A stretch of 64,000 nt of DNA, from assembly GCA_947499635.1 (NCBI GenBank), contig CANMPD010000001.1:434001-498000 (forward strand), in the 5' to 3' direction. Position 1 is the first letter of the stretch; every line of letters begins with the position of its first letter. The position numbers and the translations under genes are program-made. This document shows, in pieces, positions 1,849-15,713 of this stretch. The DNA comes from an uncultured Paracoccaceae bacterium (GTDB lineage Bacteria > Pseudomonadota > Alphaproteobacteria > Rhodobacterales > Rhodobacteraceae). The notes under the pieces were generated by a model. That model was not told the DNA's origin. It saw only the letters and a program-made list of their open reading frames with translations, and did no database searches.

Positions 1849-2318
1849 GTTATTCCCCATAGAGATTCGGGGCGTGCGCGCAGGCAGCACCCCAGCCAAT
1901 TTGTGGCCTTCTATTGTCACAAGCCGCTCGGTGCAAGAGGGTTGTGCGCCAGATCGTGCTCAACACAAAGATAGTTCCCGCAAATCGGCTATTTTTGACG
2001 TCAAATTGCCTTCAACCGCGTCATACGCCTTTGGGGAGATATAACAACCAGTCGTGACAACAAGCCAACACATCTGAACCATGGCATCACTCGTTTGAAA
2101 GCTCGTACATTCCAACAATCAACAACTAAACTGCAATTAGGTACTTCTACTTTCTTCATCCATACAATCCAATCAATGCCACACACTTATAAAACCCAAT
2201 AAACCTACGTAAATACAGCATGATAGAACCAGGATAGAAGTCACTTTCACCCTCGCCTTATAGGGGTATTAACAAATTCGGCTTAGCTTACATTTGATTC
2301 TGCGACATGGAGAGCTTC
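1849..2318. other. Intergenic region between tig and the chemoreceptor gene
   Basis: About 470 bases separate two divergent genes and must hold both promoters. I see no RNA gene and no coding pattern; the short frames here lack ribosome sites. A GGAGAG ribosome binding site at 2309-2314 decides the chemoreceptor start. Confidence 0.5.
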
Positions 2319-4499
2319 ATGAAACTGCGTTTAGTGATGATTATGGTAATCGGGCCCTTTTGCCTGCTCAGCGCTTACCTGATCTATACCGAGATTCAAA
2401 CCCAGCGCGGCTTTTACGACCGTGCACATCTCACCACCCTCAAATCCGAGGAAGGTGCAGTATTGGGCAGCCTTGCGCATGAACTTCAGAAAGAACGCGG
2501 TTATTCGGCGGGTCATGTTGCCTCTGGTGGAAAAAACTTTTCTCGTGAATTGGCTGATCAACGTAAGCAGACAGATGCCGCAATCGATGCGATGAAAGCG
2601 CGTATTGACCTATTGGCAACATCACACCCCGTTCAATACGAAGATCTGCAACATCACCTTGTCGACCTTCCAGAAGAACGCAAAACCATCGATGCGATTA
2701 ACACTACGGTACCTCAACTTGCGAGGTTTTATACGGAAGCTATAAATGACCTCCTTGATATGTCCGGTCCGTCCGGCGCGACCAACGCTCAAGAACGCAT
2801 GAACACACTATTGCAGGCACGTGCGTTAGTTGCCGCAGCCAAAGAACAAGCTGGTCTTGAACGCGCTATGGGCGCAACAGGTCTTGGTGGCGGATTTCAC
2901 ATCGCTATTCACAATCGTTATGCTGGCCTTGGCGGAGCAATGACTGCAATGTTACACGAAGCAGCTGTTTTGATTGACGGTGGTGCTTGGGGGGAATGGG
3001 AAGGACAGTTAAAGTCAGAAGAGGCCTATAACGACCTGATCGCAGCTCGGATAAAAATATACCAAGGCATCGAAACCGGTGATTACGAGGATATGACAGC
3101 GGGAAAATGGTTCCAGATTTCAACCCGCTGGATTGATTTACTTCGCGCACGCGAGGTGGCTCTCATCGAAGAAATCACATCACTGACCCACGATGTAGAA
3201 ACCGCAGCGAATACTGTATATATCCGACTTTCAATCATTGCATTCACCGCGACGGTGACCGCCCTCATCATCGCAATTGGTAGCTTTGAATACATGATTG
3301 CGCGCATCAAAAATCTAACCAATGTCGTTGCAGGCTTTGCACGTGGCGAATTTGATATATGGATCAAGGGTATCGAAGGCAAAGATGAAATCAGTCGTAT
3401 GGCTTTTGCAATCTATAAATTTAAGCAAGAGACCCTATCTATGCGTCGCAATGCAGAAACCCTCGAACAAGAGCAGATTGAGCGTAAAGAGGAACAAGAT
3501 TACGTCGTTAACCGCATCCGTAATGGGTTGGGTCAATTGGCAAAGGGTAATTTAACGACCCGTTTTTCAGAAAATTTTCCAACGGAATACGAAGCCTTAC
3601 GTGATGATTTCAACACGGCAGTACATCAATTGAATGATGTGATGGTTAAACTCGTCGAAACATCCGAAAGTATCAAAGGCGGCGCTGCGGAAATCAAACA
3701 AGCCTCTGACGATCTATCGAACAGAACGGAATCTCAAGCCGCCACTCTTGAAGAAACCTCCGCAGCGCTTGAAGAAATTACAAATACTGTACGTTCCGCT
3801 GCTGAAGGTGCACGTAATGCACAAAGCACCACCGAAGAAGCCCGTGACGAAGCGACGACAAGCGGTGTCGTGGTACAAGAAGCTGTAAAAGCGATGGCCG
3901 ACATTGAGCATTCGTCTACAAAAATCGCGCAAATTATCAGCGTCATCGACGATATTGCGTTCCAAACGAACTTACTCGCTTTGAATGCTGGTGTCGAAGC
4001 CGCCCGCGCAGGAGAAGCTGGACGAGGATTCGCGGTTGTCGCTTCTGAAGTGCGCAGCCTTGCTCAACGTTCCTCAGATGCTGCCATGGAAATCAAGACT
4101 TTGATCAACACAAGCTCCCAACAAGTGGCCAGCGGTGTGGATTTGGTTAACAAAACCGGTGTGGCGTTGGAAAGTATTGTCACACGTGTGGGTCATATCT
4201 CGTCGCTGGTGACCTCAATCGCTCAAGGCGCCGCCGAACAATCAACAGGGCTAGGAGACGTAAACACAGGTGTTGTGCAACTTGATAAAGTCACGCAACA
4301 AAACGCCGCTATGGTTGAAGAAGCCACAGCTGCCAGCCACCTTTTGGACACGAATGCAAGCCAACTCAATGAATTAGTCTACGGATTTGATATAGACTTT
4401 AATAGAGACGACTTATCCAAACAAATAGATGCTCATGACACGATCCCGTCAGAAGCAAACACAGAGGAATTGGATCCACCGCTGGCGATAGCCGGATAG
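2319..4499 (+). CDS. Methyl-accepting chemotaxis protein with NIT-type sensor domain
   Basis: A 726-residue inner-membrane chemoreceptor. It has a transmembrane segment at the N-terminus, a periplasmic helical domain of about 280 residues starting with an [11 protein letters not shown] motif typical of nitrate/nitrite-sensing (NIT, PF08376) domains, a second transmembrane segment near residues 305-325, and two HAMP-like stretches. The signalling domain has the near-invariant hairpin tip [20 protein letters not shown]. It would report ligand binding to CheA through CheW. No pentapeptide CheR-tether is seen at the C-terminus (ends DPPLAIAG). The ATG at 2319 follows a GGAGAG site by four bases and is preferred to the ATG at 2307. 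No che genes are nearby, so it is an orphan receptor. The ligand is inferred from the domain only. Confidence 0.92.
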
Positions 4500-4579
4500 A
4501 AGTAGCGCAGCAACGATCTATGTAATTGTTTCAATTGCTCACACACTCAGCCAAAAATTCACCGAGTGGCAATACTTTC

Positions 4580-4604
4580 GTAACAATTACCTCTCAATTG
4601 TAAC
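4580..4604. promoter_or_regulatory. Imperfect inverted repeat upstream of the bufferin operon
   Basis: Arms GTAACAATT and AATTGTAAC flank a 7-base spacer, with one internal mismatch. It lies about 200 bases upstream of bufA, in the 307-base gap after the chemoreceptor gene. It may be a regulator site or chance; no known consensus is matched. Confidence 0.25.
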
Positions 4605-4685
4605 ACCAGGGATGTAAGATTCAGGTGGGACATATGAAGATTATAACGTATCGCTCTGAAAATAAATAATTTTCCCACACAGACA

Positions 4686-4727
4686 CCTCACGTAAACTAA
4701 CGCGATCGTGAGGCACGCGACCGTGAG
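4686..4727. promoter_or_regulatory. Nested inverted and direct repeats upstream of bufA
   Basis: CCTCACG (4686-4692) and CGTGAGG (4707-4713) form a 7-bp inverted repeat with a 14-base spacer. CGCGATCGTGAG (4701-4712) is repeated in direct orientation as CGCGACCGTGAG (4716-4727), 15 bases on. They lie 80-120 bases before the bufA start, where promoter and operator are expected. The binding protein is unknown. Confidence 0.35.
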
Positions 4728-4806
4728 TTTGTCTTGGCCGTTCTTTCGGCTAAGGTTAACTTACAACGACTTGACCGACCTACCACTAAATAGGAGAACT
4801 AAAGTT

Positions 4807-5112
4807 ATGTCTAACACACACAAAACTCTCGCCGTAATGGGTGCCGTCGCTGCGGCTCTTACTGCAGTTGCAAGCACCGACGCAGCAGCACAATCCAAAG
4901 AAAAGTGCTACGGTATCTCACTTGCTGGCCAAAACGATTGTGCGGCAGGTCCTGGTACAACATGCGCAGGTACATCAACTGTTGATTACCAAGGTAACGC
5001 GTGGACACTGGTTGATGCGGGTACTTGCGCGACACTTGAGTTGCCTGCAAGCGCAGACGGTTCTGCACGAAATGGATCTCTTGAGCCACTTGCTCGCGAC
5101 GTGCCAGCATAA
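4807..5112 (+). CDS. bufA: Bufferin-type metallophore precursor (DUF2282, BufA1 family)
   Basis: A small secreted protein of 101 residues. Residues 1-28 form a Sec signal peptide ending in an Ala-rich stretch (likely cut after AAA-28). The mature part carries the DUF2282/BufA1 pattern: four cysteines at 34, 45, 53 and 74 in [17 protein letters not shown] and DAGTC. In characterised members, DUF692 enzymes convert core cysteines to thiooxazole-type groups and the peptide binds copper in the periplasm. The start at 4807 follows an AGGAGA site by nine bases; the longer frame upstream lacks one. It leads an operon with its maturase genes, and a hairpin terminator lies 33 bases after the stop. The family is assigned with confidence; metal specificity is inferred. 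Confidence 0.93.
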
Positions 5113-5144
5113 TCCTTTTAGGATTGAAATAATCCATAAACGTT

Positions 5145-5171
5145 ATCTGGGCATCACAATGCCCAGATTTT
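5145..5171 (+). terminator. Terminator-like hairpin between bufA and bufB
   Basis: A perfect 10-bp stem (ATCTGGGCAT against ATGCCCAGAT), a 4-base loop and a short T run. It sits inside the operon, after the precursor gene and before the maturase gene, so it would make transcripts of the precursor more abundant than those of the enzymes. Confidence 0.75.
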
Positions 5172-5187
5172 CAGATAAAAATATACT

Positions 5188-5203
5188 CATGTTATATAAC
5201 ATG
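5188..5203. promoter_or_regulatory. Perfect 16-bp palindrome CATGTTATATAACATG before bufB
   Basis: An uninterrupted palindrome 50 bases upstream of bufB and 17 bases after the hairpin terminator. Its core TGTTATATAACA resembles alphaproteobacterial Zur (zinc uptake regulator) boxes. It could be the operator of a second promoter serving bufBCD. The Zur link is a resemblance by eye only. Confidence 0.45.
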
Positions 5204-5252
5204 TTAGTTTTATCACCGACGAAACTCTAAATTAATAGAGGGGACTGTCACA

Positions 5253-6116
5253 ATGTTTGATCGATCCAGCCTCGGACAACTGCCGAATGGCGCGGGTGTG
5301 GGCTACAAACCCCAGCATTTCTCAGATATCGAAGCGGATGCTGGAACGGTTCGCTGGCTTGAAATCCATGCTGAAAACTACATGGGTGATGGTGGGCGGC
5401 CTTTAGCCCAATTGCGCCACTTACGCGAAAGTTTTCCTATCTCAGTCCATGGTGTCGGTTTATCAATTGGCGGCGAAGGATCACTGGACAAGGATCATCT
5501 CGCACGGTTAAAAAATCTTGTGCGATGGATTGAACCAGCAAGCTTTTCAGAACACCTAGCTTGGTCAACACACGACAGTCACTTTTTCAACGACCTGCTC
5601 CCCCTACCCTACACCGACCAAACACTAGAGCGTGTGTGCGACCACATAGATCAGGTTCAGAGTACTGTCGGCCAACAAATGCTGCTTGAAAACCCCTCAA
5701 GCTACCTCGCGTTTGCGGAAAGCACATGGGAAGAACCAGCCTTTATGGCTGAGATTGCCAAACGCACGGGCTGTGGGTTGCTTTTGGATGTGAATAATGT
5801 CTTCATCTCGGCGACAAATTTACATTATAGCCCTCAAGCTTACATCGATGCCTACAAACTCGATTGCGTTGGTGAAATCCACCTTGGCGGCCACGACGAG
5901 GATGAAGATGATCATGGACATCCCCTGTTGATCGACAGTCATGGCTGTGAAGTTGTCGACCCAGTCTGGGCGTTATTGGATTATACTCTGGCGCAATCTG
6001 GTTCAAAGCCATTGCTGATCGAATGGGATACAGACGTACCTGAGTGGTCCGTCCTGAGACAGGAAGCATCACGCGCAACCGCAGCGTTGAACCAATTCCA
6101 ACTGGCGGCTCAATGA
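5253..6116 (+). CDS. bufB: MNIO-family bufferin maturase (DUF692)
   Basis: A 287-residue cytoplasmic TIM-barrel enzyme of the DUF692 family, now called multinuclear non-heme iron oxidative enzymes. Candidate metal ligands stand in the usual order: HAEN (near 35), SVHGVGLS, SEHLAW, LLENPSSYL, LLLDVNNVF, EIHLGGHDED and LLIEWD. The family installs thiooxazole or related modifications on cysteines of partner peptides using iron and oxygen, so the substrate here is presumably the adjacent bufA product. A GAGGGGAC ribosome site precedes the ATG. The stop overlaps the bufC start as ATGA, which suggests translational coupling. Confidence 0.95.
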   Translation: MFDRSSLGQLPNGAGVGYKPQHFSDIEADAGTVRWLEIHAENYMGDGGRPLAQLRHLRESFPISVHGVGLSIGGEGSLDKDHLARLKNLVRWIEPASFSEHLAWSTHDSHFFNDLLPLPYTDQTLERVCDHIDQVQSTVGQQMLLENPSSYLAFAESTWEEPAFMAEIAKRTGCGLLLDVNNVFISATNLHYSPQAYIDAYKLDCVGEIHLGGHDEDEDDHGHPLLIDSHGCEVVDPVWALLDYTLAQSGSKPLLIEWDTDVPEWSVLRQEASRATAALNQFQLAAQ

Positions 6117-6898
6117 CACAGACCAATGCATCTCACACTGTTGCCGTTTCACAAGCGGAATTCACAGCAGCAATGCGTGATGCACGTCTGGATATTCCAG
6201 CAGGCTTGATTGATGCTGAGCATCATCCTGCAGGGCGGCGCTTTTCAGTTTACCGAAATAATGTCGCAGTTTCTCTACGTGAAGCATTGCACACAGGTTT
6301 CCCTATAATTGCAAAGCTCTTAGGGCCGCAAAATATGGATGGGCTTGCAGGTATCTTCTTGCGCGCGCATCCACCAAAATCACCTTTAATGATGCATTAT
6401 GGCGACGAATTTCCAGAGTTTCTCGCCAATATGCAACAACTTAGTCATTTGGGATATCTCCCTGATATAGCACGGCTCGAGCTTGCTTTGCGTCGTAGCT
6501 ATCATGCTAAAGATGTGGCACCTCTCGCTCCGGAAGCACTTGCGCAGTTGTCTGCTGACGAGTTAATGGAGGCAAAGTTTGAACTAGCCCCTGCTGCGAT
6601 GGTTTTAAATTCGCTCTGGCCTATCTACGATATTTGGCGCATTAATACCCAAGATGATGCTCCAAAACCAACGAATACCGCTCAAGACGTGTTGATCGTG
6701 CGCAACGGTTTTGATCCAGTACCGCACTTGTTACCGGTTGGAGGAGTTGCTTTTTTCAACGCCCTACAACGCGGCGAATGCCTAAGCGACGCGAATAATG
6801 CTGCCAATAAAGAAACACCCGAGTTTGACCTTGGTGCCACACTCACACTTATGATTTCGGGCAATGCCCTCACGAAAATAAAGGGACTACATCCATGA
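6113..6898 (+). CDS. bufC: Bufferin maturation partner (DUF2063, BufC/HvfC-like)
   Basis: A 261-residue protein with an N-terminal DUF2063 domain: the FSVYRNNVAVSLREAL and GFPIIAKLLG segments near residues 42-70 are characteristic. The C-terminal half is divergent and alpha/beta-like. In MNIO systems this protein is the maturase partner and is thought to recruit the precursor peptide. The ATG at 6113 overlaps the bufB stop by four bases. The frame extends further upstream inside bufB, but the overlapping ATGA is the usual arrangement. It also overlaps bufD by ATGA. Confidence 0.92.
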   Translation: MTQTNASHTVAVSQAEFTAAMRDARLDIPAGLIDAEHHPAGRRFSVYRNNVAVSLREALHTGFPIIAKLLGPQNMDGLAGIFLRAHPPKSPLMMHYGDEFPEFLANMQQLSHLGYLPDIARLELALRRSYHAKDVAPLAPEALAQLSADELMEAKFELAPAAMVLNSLWPIYDIWRINTQDDAPKPTNTAQDVLIVRNGFDPVPHLLPVGGVAFFNALQRGECLSDANNAANKETPEFDLGATLTLMISGNALTKIKGLHP

Positions 6899-7449
6899 AT
6901 GCTCTGTTCAATCTACACAATGCAATCTTTGCATGGGTTGAGAAAATCGGTGATACGGTTATGCCAATCTTTGCCCGTTTCACCTTTGGAGCGGTTCTAC
7001 TGTTCTACTACTGGAACTCTGGCCTGACTAAGCTTGGCGATGGTATTCTAGGTATCTTCAAACCATCCATTGGGGCGTATTCACAGATTTTCCCAAAGAA
7101 GCTCGAGGCTGCAGGTTACGATATCTCACAGTTTGGTTTCTTCGAATGGATTGTGGTGATGGCTGGGACATACGCGGAATTTATTCTGCCTCTGCTTATT
7201 ATCATCGGGCTGGCAACACGTCTTGCAGCAATAGGGATGATTGGCTTTGTAGTTGTCCAATCCCTTACCGATGTGTACGGACACCATGCCACAGATGTAA
7301 AAACCTTAGGTATGTGGTTTGATCGTTTATCCGATAGTGTGATCATGGATCAGCGGTTATTGTGGGTTTTTGTTCTCGCTTATATTGTCTTCAAAGGTGC
7401 CGGCGCCCTGTCGGTTGATAAGCAAATCTGCAAGCGCATGAACCATTAA
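6895..7449 (+). CDS. bufD: DoxX-family membrane protein of the bufferin operon
   Basis: A 184-residue inner-membrane protein of the DoxX family with about four transmembrane helices (near residues 24-45, 80-105, 108-130 and 150-170). DoxX proteins commonly close bufferin operons; their role is not settled, and redox support or membrane handling of the peptide has been suggested. It starts inside the bufC stop (ATGA) and is followed 28 bases later by a strong terminator, so it is the last gene of the operon. Confidence 0.9.
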   Translation: MNALFNLHNAIFAWVEKIGDTVMPIFARFTFGAVLLFYYWNSGLTKLGDGILGIFKPSIGAYSQIFPKKLEAAGYDISQFGFFEWIVVMAGTYAEFILPLLIIIGLATRLAAIGMIGFVVVQSLTDVYGHHATDVKTLGMWFDRLSDSVIMDQRLLWVFVLAYIVFKGAGALSVDKQICKRMNH

Positions 7450-7477
7450 TACGCGTACACCGATAATTTGTTACATT

Positions 7478-7512
7478 AAAAAGGTGCCTCAGTTAAACTG
7501 AGGCACCTTTTT
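7478..7512. terminator. Strong bidirectional terminator
   Basis: A 16-bp perfect stem (AAAAAGGTGCCTCAGT and its complement) with a 3-base loop, A run before and T run after. It ends the bufferin operon on the plus strand and the ArsC-like gene on the minus strand, and just touches the stop codon of the latter. Confidence 0.92.
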
Positions 7513-7834
7513 AATTTACGTCAACATTAAGGGCGGATTTAATATCGCTCCCCCACCCCAAGTACAATACCCCATCAGCTTCGATCAGTGGTCGCTTCAT
7601 TAGGGTAGGATGCATTGTCAACAACTCAAGCGGCGGGATCTTACGCTCATCCTCATCCAAATTTCGCCAGGTCGTTGAGCGGGTATTAACCAGTTTGTCT
7701 GAAAACTGCGCAAAAGCACGCTCAAGCAGCGCTGAAGGAATTCCATCCACACGCAAATCGACAAGCTCTGCACTTTTTAATGATTTCAGTACCTTACGAC
7801 AACTATCACATGTTTTTATACCGTAGACTTTCAT
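7511..7834 (-). CDS. ArsC/Spx-family reductase-like protein (YffB-like)
   Basis: A 107-residue thioredoxin-fold protein of the ArsC/Spx family. It has the N-terminal CDSC motif (residues 9-12) in MKVYGIKTCDSCRK and the KRPLI loop near residue 80, typical of the YffB subgroup. Members are glutathione- or thiol-dependent reductases of uncertain substrate; arsenate reduction is not established for this subgroup. It is a single gene, divergent from the cold shock gene and convergent with the bufferin operon. Its closeness to the metal operon may be chance. Confidence 0.85.
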   Translation of the reverse strand: MKVYGIKTCDSCRKVLKSLKSAELVDLRVDGIPSALLERAFAQFSDKLVNTRSTTWRNLDEDERKIPPLELLTMHPTLMKRPLIEADGVLYLGWGSDIKSALNVDVN

Positions 7835-8034
7835 TTAAACCTCACTCTCCATAAAAGCCTCGCACACTTTATGGTAGAATTTCTTCATTTTCCTTTGCAT
7901 TTTTCAGCCCTCATGCCAAACTGGATTAAGGTCATAACGCACTGCGACATACGCAAAATTAAATGCATTTTGACTTATAGCGAGAGCAAATACTTTGAGC
8001 ACCCTCAAAGTGAAGTAAGAAGGAGACACGGGAC

Positions 8035-8241
8035 ATGGCAAGCGGCACCGTGAAATGGTTCAATACCACCAAGGGTTATGGCTTTATCGAGCCTGACGAA
8101 GGCGGGAAAGATGTATTTGTGCATATTTCCGCAGTTGAACGATCTGGCCTCACTGGCTTGGCTGACAATCAGAAAGTTGGATATGAACTGTCCGAAGGAC
8201 GCGATGGCCGCCAGATGGCAAGCGATATCAAAGCAATCTGA
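8035..8241 (+). CDS. Cold shock protein, CspA family
   Basis: A 68-residue single cold-shock domain with both RNA-binding motifs: KGYGFIEPD (RNP1) and DVFVHISAV (RNP2). It binds single-stranded RNA and melts secondary structure. The start follows an AAGGAGA site by nine bases (ending CACGGGAC). The 200-base leader upstream is long for such a gene and could carry a cold-responsive structure, as in other csp genes, but no specific fold was identified. Confidence 0.95.
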   Translation: MASGTVKWFNTTKGYGFIEPDEGGKDVFVHISAVERSGLTGLADNQKVGYELSEGRDGRQMASDIKAI

Positions 8242-13939: not shown

Positions 13940-14986
13940 CTAAAGTGCAGTTACCAGCAAAGACAAGCAGATCCACACCACCAACGCGCCGGCACCCAAC
14001 TCAATCATGGCCACCAGACGCCGCAAGCCCGTTGCCGCCAAGGTCTGTAAAAGCCCTCCGCGTAGGCCCACAGCCGCAACAGCAACCCCAGTGGTAATCA
14101 TCGCCGTCCCCAACCCCATCGAAAGAGCTCCTAAAACGCCGGCACCTAAAATTCCCATGCGCCAGGTGAGCAGCAATAGGAAGATTGCCCCAGTACAAGG
14201 CCGAATTGCGATCGTCACGATCAACGCCAATGCATCTCGAACGGATGTCAGTTCCTGAACCTCTTCCAGTGTGGGTCCATGGCGGTGACCGCAACTTTCA
14301 CACACGCCTGATGAATGCGAATGACCGTTTTCATGCGTGTGATTGTGACCCGAAGCGTGGCTTTGGTGAGTCTTCACATTTTGAGTGTTTCGTAAGGTCA
14401 ACAACCGCCGCGCGCCACGTAATGCCAGATACATCCCCACAAGCGCCATCAAACCATAAGATAAAGGTGCCAGCCAATGTTCAGCAGCCTGCGTAATCTC
14501 GCTTCGGGTCCATCCTAATCCCCAAGCTGTCCCTGCGACAAGCACAATGGCTGTGCAAGCCTGTGCCAAAGAAGCCGCAAAGGAAATCGCCACAAGCCGA
14601 ATAACAGCCACGCGTTGCCCCAAAGCATAACCGCCAATAACAATCTTACCATGTCCCGGACCCGCGGCATGAAAGAGACCATAAGCGAAACTTATACTAC
14701 AAAGACCGAGTAAGGCCCCTGGTTCGCCCGCACGCAAGGCACGCAGCGCCACAGCCAGTGCAGTTTGTGCCTCACGTTGACCTGCTGCAGCCCAAATACG
14801 TAAATCAACCAACCCACCAAACGCAAAGAGCCACACGGCAAGCCCAACCACACCAAACGCGACTCCGCCCAGCAACAATGCCAATAATCTGCGTCCAAAT
14901 TGCGATACGACGACCGATGCCTCTTCTGTTTTGGTATGAGGCGTCATGCAGTCGCCATGCAGTTTAACTTGGGACGTTTGTGTCAT
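13940..14986 (-). CDS. NicO/RcnA-type nickel-cobalt exporter
   Basis: A 348-residue inner-membrane protein with about six to seven helices. It has the NicO signature FHAAGPGHGK near residue 105 and a histidine-rich cytoplasmic loop (HASGHNHTHENGHSHSS, then CESCGHRHG) near residues 210-240 that can bind Ni, Co or Zn. RcnA-like members export nickel and cobalt; other members import. A second helix bundle (ALIVTIAIRPCTGAIFLLL) completes the fold. It overlaps the DUF1007 gene by one base (TAATG), so the two are expressed together. The transport direction is inferred. Confidence 0.88.
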   Translation of the reverse strand: MTQTSQVKLHGDCMTPHTKTEEASVVVSQFGRRLLALLLGGVAFGVVGLAVWLFAFGGLVDLRIWAAAGQREAQTALAVALRALRAGEPGALLGLCSISFAYGLFHAAGPGHGKIVIGGYALGQRVAVIRLVAISFAASLAQACTAIVLVAGTAWGLGWTRSEITQAAEHWLAPLSYGLMALVGMYLALRGARRLLTLRNTQNVKTHQSHASGHNHTHENGHSHSSGVCESCGHRHGPTLEEVQELTSVRDALALIVTIAIRPCTGAIFLLLLTWRMGILGAGVLGALSMGLGTAMITTGVAVAAVGLRGGLLQTLAATGLRRLVAMIELGAGALVVWICLSLLVTAL

Positions 14987-15705
14987 TACGTGTCCTTACA
15001 GTGCAAGTGCACGACTGCTGCAAAGGCTTCTCCGACTTCAGGGTAAGCCGCCTCGACCTGATCTTGCGGCGTTGCATACAACAGCTCCTCGACCTTGGAA
15101 TAAGCCGCATTCAAGTCTGGTTGCGTAACTTGTACAGAGCAATTTTGGCCGGTGTTATCTTGATTTGTGCGATCTTGCCCATTCATCGCTGCAATCTGTG
15201 CCTGCTTCAATTCATATGAAGAGTAATAACCCGGGTCGTAGGCTTTTATCTGCAATTGATCCGCAGAGATGGGTGTATCCAACAGGCGGCGGTGCCGAGA
15301 GATGATCTGACCATTCGCCACTGTGACACCCAAATCCTGCGGTTTTCCCAAAGCAATCGGTCCTGCCGCATTCTTAGTTGTGGTCACATAAAGGTCTCCA
15401 TTGAATTCTGCATCCCACTGCAGATCGAACCCCTGCAACTGCCCTAATTCACCTGAAGTGAGTTGACCGTCAAAATCACTATCCAGCCCACGTTCTTCCA
15501 ATATAACAAGGGAATAGAAATCATCATAAGCCCAGGTCACATCCACGGCAACCAACTGTCCTTGCGCATCGATCTCGAGCATCAATGACGTATCAATGAA
15601 CACGTGTGGGTGTGCATGAGTGGGCGATATAGCAAAACATAGGGCTGCAGCCGTATATGCCAAACGTATCCCAAGCTTACGAACATTCGAAAAAGGTTTT
15701 TTCAT
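14986..15705 (-). CDS. DUF1007 periplasmic metal-related protein
   Basis: A 239-residue exported protein. The signal peptide runs to about residue 31, ending THA, so the mature protein begins HPHVFIDTS, the hallmark of DUF1007. A free N-terminal His followed by a second His could form a metal site. The protein also contains DSDFDGQLTSGEL, which resembles an EF-hand-like calcium loop. The ATG at 15705 is preferred to the TTG at 15711. It pairs with the NicO exporter, as DUF1007 genes often do, suggesting delivery of divalent metal to or from the transporter. Confidence 0.87.
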   Translation of the reverse strand: MKKPFSNVRKLGIRLAYTAAALCFAISPTHAHPHVFIDTSLMLEIDAQGQLVAVDVTWAYDDFYSLVILEERGLDSDFDGQLTSGELGQLQGFDLQWDAEFNGDLYVTTTKNAAGPIALGKPQDLGVTVANGQIISRHRRLLDTPISADQLQIKAYDPGYYSSYELKQAQIAAMNGQDRTNQDNTGQNCSVQVTQPDLNAAYSKVEELLYATPQDQVEAAYPEVGEAFAAVVHLHCKDT

Positions 15706-15713
15706 ATTCAAAA

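Follow-up and report, generated by a model that had tools for sequence, protein, structure and literature searches.

What switches on a bufferin operon in a genome that has no match to NrsF, the partner of the one sigma factor described as controlling such operons? The question is raised by the genes bufABCD, which lie in a 64,000-nucleotide (nt) stretch of DNA from an uncultured Paracoccaceae bacterium (assembly GCA_947499635.1, contig CANMPD010000001.1, positions 434,001 to 498,000), hereafter the window. Bufferins form a large class, recognised only recently, of copper-binding ribosomally synthesised and post-translationally modified peptides (RiPPs), and, as far as the literature that we found goes, their control has so far been described in a single case: the Buf1 operon of Caulobacter belongs to the copper-induced regulon of SigF and NrsF (PMC8224329; SigF and NrsF in PMC3511200). 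We consider it probable that the window carries a Buf1 bufferin operon, with a modified, copper-binding peptide, and that this operon is driven by the response regulator CenR, which belongs to the envelope two-component system CenK-CenR, at two tandem sites upstream of a sigma-70-type promoter. With slightly less assurance, we also lean toward a more general statement: in most sampled bufferin-bearing genera of the family, the bufferin operon would answer to CenK-CenR, through two tandem CenR sites, instead of a metal-stress sigma factor; copper buffering would thereby belong to envelope maintenance, and CenK may sense copper-type damage in the periplasm.

An earlier note, made from the letters of the window, had proposed a four-gene operon encoding a 101-residue DUF2282 precursor with four cysteines followed by DUF692, DUF2063 and DoxX proteins. 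Every detail of it that could be checked held, from the genes and their coordinates (Table 1) to the ATGA overlaps that join bufB to bufC (6113-6116) and bufC to bufD (6895-6898); a gap of 140 nt separates bufA from bufB. The comparison with DUF692, DUF2063 and DUF2282 profile models, which that note had set beforehand, placed all three families over their Pfam cut-offs: BufA matches PF10048 (DUF2282) with 85.5 bits against a cut-off of 22.4, BufB matches PF05114 (MbnB_TglH_ChrH) with 339.9 bits against 25, and BufC matches DUF2063 over residues 14-104 with 85.5 bits against 27.2. BufD is assigned to PF07681 (DoxX) with 32.3 bits against 23.6. BufB also passes the curated NCBIfam cut-off for bufferin maturases (NF050167 MNIO_BufB, 367.1 bits against 310), and the NCBIfam Hvf models for BufC and BufD, as well as the BufA2 model for BufA, all remain under cut-off. 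In the whole genome, MNIO and DUF2282 each have a single match. Since families and gene order are those of published Buf1, BufB is over the maturase cut-off and the predicted fold of BufC resembles that of MNIO partners (see below), the proposal that this is a bufferin operon is supported as well; judged by its sequence, the cluster is a textbook Buf1 operon, known in kind. Such operons are widespread: DUF2282 precursors were found in 140 of the 198 sampled genera of the family, and 30 of the 41 relatives, among them all 18 genomes of the genus, have a BufB relative. The four-gene association is not due to chance, because a bufC relative is present in all 104 loci brought in by BufB searches and a bufD relative in 100 of them.

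The region upstream of bufA is conserved in a very specific manner. After 147 upstream regions had been collapsed to 119 distinct ones, the pattern CGTGA-N2-CACG-N4-CGTGA, with at most three mismatches, was found above bufA in 105 of them, compared with about 1.5 in shuffles. With its left flank, this box resolves into two 15-base-pair units, TGACGCnnnCGTGAn and nCACGnnnnCGTGAn, and a TAnnnT element follows it at a distance of 24 or 25 nt in 86 of the 119 regions. We scored these units on a matrix made from 31 published CenR sites of Rhodobacter sphaeroides, for which the published sites themselves have a median score of 10.5; the two units in the window score 10.9 and 10.1. Pairs in which both scores are at least 7 occur at a spacing of 15 nt in 74 of the 119 regions and at each other spacing from 8 to 25 nt in 0 to 6 regions, and the same count is 0 with the reversed matrix and at most 1 with each of 20 column-permuted matrices. 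If transcription is assumed to start 7 nt below the -10 element, the distance from the start up to the centre of the second site is 43.5 nt in 55 regions and 44.5 nt in 31.

In genome-wide searches, a box profile built from 48 representative regions ranked the bufA site first in 15 of 16 genus genomes (per genome, 150 of the first-look candidates were scored; these number 1109 in G000), a ranking to be read with the profile having been built partly from the bufA sites that it ranks; in the exception, G014, bufB is at a contig end. Among the matches listed for the genome of the window, the bufA site has 23.2 bits and the next one 14.2 bits, and those secondary matches that we opened sit in unrelated places. 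The box with at most two mismatches has 28 matches in this genome, that of bufA included, against 23 for the control, and for TSACGCNNNYGTGA there are 7 matches, in 6 places, against 3 for the control, with no clear known CenR target among them. A hairpin in the 5' leader is only moderately enriched (stems of at least 4 in 67 of 84 against 30.7 in shuffles; stems of at least 6 in 2 against 2.6), and an Rfam search returned two tRNAs and nothing else.

Table 1. Features of the buf locus, in window coordinates; ranks are among 127,972 window positions scored on the CenR matrix.
Feature	Position	Strand	Description
CenR-type site 1	4698-4712	+	TAACGCGATCGTGAG; score 10.9, rank 10
CenR-type site 2	4713-4727	+	GCACGCGACCGTGAG; exactly 15 nt downstream of site 1; score 10.1, rank 19
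Inferred -35	4728-4733	+	TTTGTC; placed from a 17-nt spacer to the -10; adjoins site 2
Inferred -10	4751-4756	+	TAAGGT; TAnnnT at fixed distance from the box
bufA	4807-5112	+	DUF2282 (Buf1) precursor, 101 residues, Cys 34/45/53/74
Hairpin between bufA and bufB	5145-5168	+	10-base-pair stem, 4-nt loop
bufB	5253-6116	+	MNIO (DUF692) bufferin maturase, 287 residues
bufC	6113-6898	+	DUF2063 MNIO partner protein, 261 residues
bufD	6895-7449	+	DoxX-family membrane protein, 184 residues

The arrangement resembles that of published CenR promoters. In R. sphaeroides, chromatin immunoprecipitation sequencing together with RNA sequencing defined 31 CenR sites (PMC9275681, section 11), 28 of which are directly upstream of the -35 element and oriented with transcription. 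In Sinorhizobium meliloti, the CenR-dependent srlA promoter has a dyad, TCAC-N6-GTGA, adjacent to the -35 element, with its centre at -42; the promoter is less active when the dyad is mutated, and the results of gel shifts point to a class II activator (PMC9561847). This dyad scores 12.3 on the R. sphaeroides matrix. The putative promoter in the window shares with those of both organisms the TGA-N8-TGA and TCAC-N6-GTGA form and the location directly upstream of the -35 element, and it differs from them in having two tandem sites exactly 15 nt apart, placed before a bufferin operon. A candidate for the regulator itself was found among the eight OmpR-type regulators that are over the family cut-off in the genome of the window: the product of L229:1048-1731 has D11-D13, D51 and D56 in the numbering of R. 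sphaeroides CenR, a likeness by residue numbering only. PhoB (L225) also has Asp at 56, but it has Glu at 12. Orthologues of the candidate were found in 15 of the 19 relatives searched (E 1e-70), and ACACG-N4-CGTGA[AG] is located 82-98 nt above the gene in 11 of 12 genus genomes, similar to the site at R. sphaeroides cenR. It is likely, from these sequence features, that this gene is the cenR of the genus. Elsewhere in the same genome (L235, about 1500, minus strand), a very strong CenR-type site (15.2) is located 54 nt above a gene for a resistance-nodulation-division (RND) efflux adaptor, a possible further CenR target.

The pair of sites was compared with the SigF/NrsF system across the family. 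We used one genome per genus from 139 of the 140 DUF2282-positive genera; G131, where the locus is at a contig edge, was left out, and in G024, which has two bufA-like precursor genes in tandem followed by one bufB (L054), the first precursor gene was used. GTAAC-N17-CGA[AC] was taken as the SigF-type motif. The string GTAACC occurs once in PMC3511200. The pair was found in 80 genera with both scores at least 5 (shuffles, 0.0), in 70 at a threshold of 6 (0.2), and in 60 at a threshold of 7 (0.0), and the SigF-type motif in 13 genera (shuffles, 0.25). An NrsF match is present in 29 of the 198 sampled genera, and it was counted as adjacent to bufA when it was on the same contig within 5 kb, as assigned by eye. 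Where NrsF lies beside bufA (16 genera), the SigF-type motif is present in 11 and the pair in one (G137, in an unusual place); in the 123 genera without such a neighbour, the motif is present in 2 and the pair in 79. The division is similar when the whole genome is considered: 12 genera with the motif and 3 with the pair among the 23 that have NrsF anywhere, compared with 1 and 77, respectively, among the 116 that have it nowhere. Fisher values for NrsF adjacency are 5e-11 and 9e-6, although they are not strict probabilities because the genera are related. This distribution is consistent with the operon of the window, like that of most of the 139 genera, not being driven by a SigF/NrsF-type promoter.

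Several observations weigh against control by CenR. The pair threshold of 5 was settled after the data had been seen; at the family level, 48 of the 139 genera have neither motif, and two (G198 and G137) have both. A sigma-70 consensus scan of positions 4400-8100 gave 3 sites, compared with 5.8 expected, and none of them is above bufA. Among the matches listed for the genome of the window there is no second double box of like score, so no wider regulon with this element was detected; of the site upstream of the cenR-like gene, this genome retains one arm. No bufferin gene appears in the table of the CenR regulon published for R. sphaeroides, and tolQ is a CenR target in that organism (PMC9275681). 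Upstream of tolQ in the genus, sites scoring at least 9 were found in 4 of 12 genomes, at differing positions and with none fixed. We know of no copper signal for CenK. The lack of support from tolQ also leaves some room for the most serious competing explanation, namely, that this is a bufferin operon whose tandem box is the target of a different OmpR-type regulator with similar specificity. OmpR-type regulators often use direct repeats, and this genome encodes eight that are over the family cut-off. Nevertheless, we regard this explanation as unlikely: the box fits two separate published sets of CenR sites, those of R. sphaeroides and S. meliloti, and the same kind of site is found above the cenR-like gene of the genus. 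Under the explanation that we favour, CenR would bind the tandem sites at 4698-4727 and, once bound, would activate the sigma-70-type promoter directly downstream.

BufA would be made with an export signal, as its N-terminus is hydrophobic and has a DAAA-Q sequence, which by eye resembles a Sec signal peptide. The 11/8/21 spacing of its cysteines is identical in all 119 BufA relatives, which had been chosen with a looser spacing pattern; exactly four cysteines are present in 117 of these precursors and five in the other two. According to the published Buf1 model (PMC12452194, section 14), modification affects the central cysteines and a disulphide joins the outer two; Table 1 of the same paper lists a thiooxazole as the bufferin product, and this is also the product of related MNIO/partner systems (PMC13097082). 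By analogy, BufB and BufC would oxidise the central Cys 45 and Cys 53, probably to thiooxazoles, Cys 34 and Cys 74 would form the disulphide, and BufD would be an accessory membrane protein. Among MNIO structures, BufB has sequence matches to 3bww, 8hci and MbnB; for BufA and BufC, sequence comparison with PDB gave no relative within the limits that were set. A predicted model of BufC from 30 sequences (predicted local distance difference test score, pLDDT, 89.6) has three fold matches in PDB with E values of at most 0.001: 8hci chain A, 8hi7 chain A and 3dee (NGO1945), with whole-model match lengths of 273 columns for 8hci_A and 219 columns for 3dee. Chain A of the TglHI complex (8hci, 8hi7) is presumably TglI, and both TglI and NGO1945 are MNIO partner proteins (PMC12452194). 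Thus, BufC is predicted to fold like known MNIO partners, its half of the RiPP recognition element (RRE) type being assigned from fold matches only. The C-terminus of BufA (window 5072-5109) has a conserved GSLExLxRDLPA-like tail outside the DUF2282 domain, which a loose pattern detects in 108 of the 119 precursors and which is missing from several relatives with the SigF-type motif; the tail might contribute to recognition or to stability.

By extension from the Caulobacter bufferin, the exported peptide would bind excess copper and act as a copper sponge in the periplasm. On the other hand, the main purpose of the peptide might not be copper buffering; it could handle another metal or protect the envelope against oxidative damage. 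For some clusters, the bufferin authors themselves propose functions other than those involving copper (discussion of PMC12452194), and in R. sphaeroides the predicted regulator, CenR, has msrA as well as envelope genes such as dsbC under its control (PMC9275681). Still, we find this rather improbable, given that BufA has a canonical Buf1 core, with four cysteines at the standard spacing, and that Caulobacter Buf1 is a copper chelator that helps the cells to grow when copper is in excess (PMC12452194).

The Buf1 cluster of Caulobacter vibrioides/crescentus (CCNA_03363-03366) likewise brings together a DUF2282 precursor, a DUF692 enzyme, its partner and a DoxX-family protein. It is in regulation that the operon of the window seems to depart from this published case: in place of a SigF-type promoter, two CenR-type sites are found, in a genome with no match to NrsF. 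That the operon is still under a SigF-type extracytoplasmic function (ECF) sigma factor, as published for Caulobacter Buf1 (PMC8224329, PMC3511200) and as the 13 genera with the motif might allow, with an anti-sigma factor diverged beyond detection, is hardly credible, as the genome lacks an NrsF match, GTAAC-N17-CGA[AC] does not occur above its bufA and a TAnnnT -10 element is found at a fixed distance instead. The captophorins/oxazolins HvfA and fontiphorin resemble the predicted system in that an MNIO with a DUF2063 partner installs 5-thiooxazoles on precursor cysteines (PMC13097082), but their precursors have EGKCG repeats, whereas that of the window has a DUF2282 core.

The new element is the CenR link, which is a prediction, and not the genes, which are known in kind. 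In a partial literature search, we found no publication in which CenR, CenK or CenKR is mentioned alongside DUF692, DUF2282 or bufferins. Epibacterium mobile, which we take to be the present Tritonibacter mobilis, has been the subject of a proteomics paper. In the main text of that paper (PMC6308992), DoxX, DUF692 and DUF2282 are not named. If the prediction is true, it would link copper tolerance to the two-component system by which cell shape and division are governed in this group; should it prove wrong, the locus would be one more ordinary bufferin operon, preceded by a conserved box still in need of an explanation. With a concrete regulator site in 80 of the 139 sampled genera, the question of the bufferin switch is directly testable.

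The gap between bufA and bufB (5113-5252) contains a hairpin (Table 1) and folds at z -4.43. Perfect stems of at least 7 were found in 67 of 103 gaps of relatives (gaps of at least 30 nt), compared with 4.9 in shuffles, and the stem sequences vary widely among loci. The simplest reading is that of a partial terminator or 3' stabiliser, by which the operon would probably yield more message for the precursor than for the enzymes. The same gap contains a perfect palindrome, CATGTTATATAACATG (5188-5203), expected 0.02 times per window even with two mismatches; it was considered as a Zur-like box and rejected, its spacing being unlike that of a Zur box.

Just upstream of the buf promoter is a gene for a chemoreceptor with a nitrate/nitrite-sensing NIT domain, a HAMP domain and an MCP signal domain (2307-4499, plus strand). 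Convergent with bufD is a gene for an ArsC-family protein (48.8 bits; 7511-7834, minus strand). Among the related loci, one contig titled Nocardioides marinus (L163) has a buf locus that is 76% identical to that of the window and carries the roseobacter-type box; mislabelling or contamination of this record is probable. A few kb away from the operon (13940-15711, minus strand), the window encodes a second pair of proteins for metal handling, of which one is a NicO-family transporter that has a His-rich loop and the other a DUF1007 protein.

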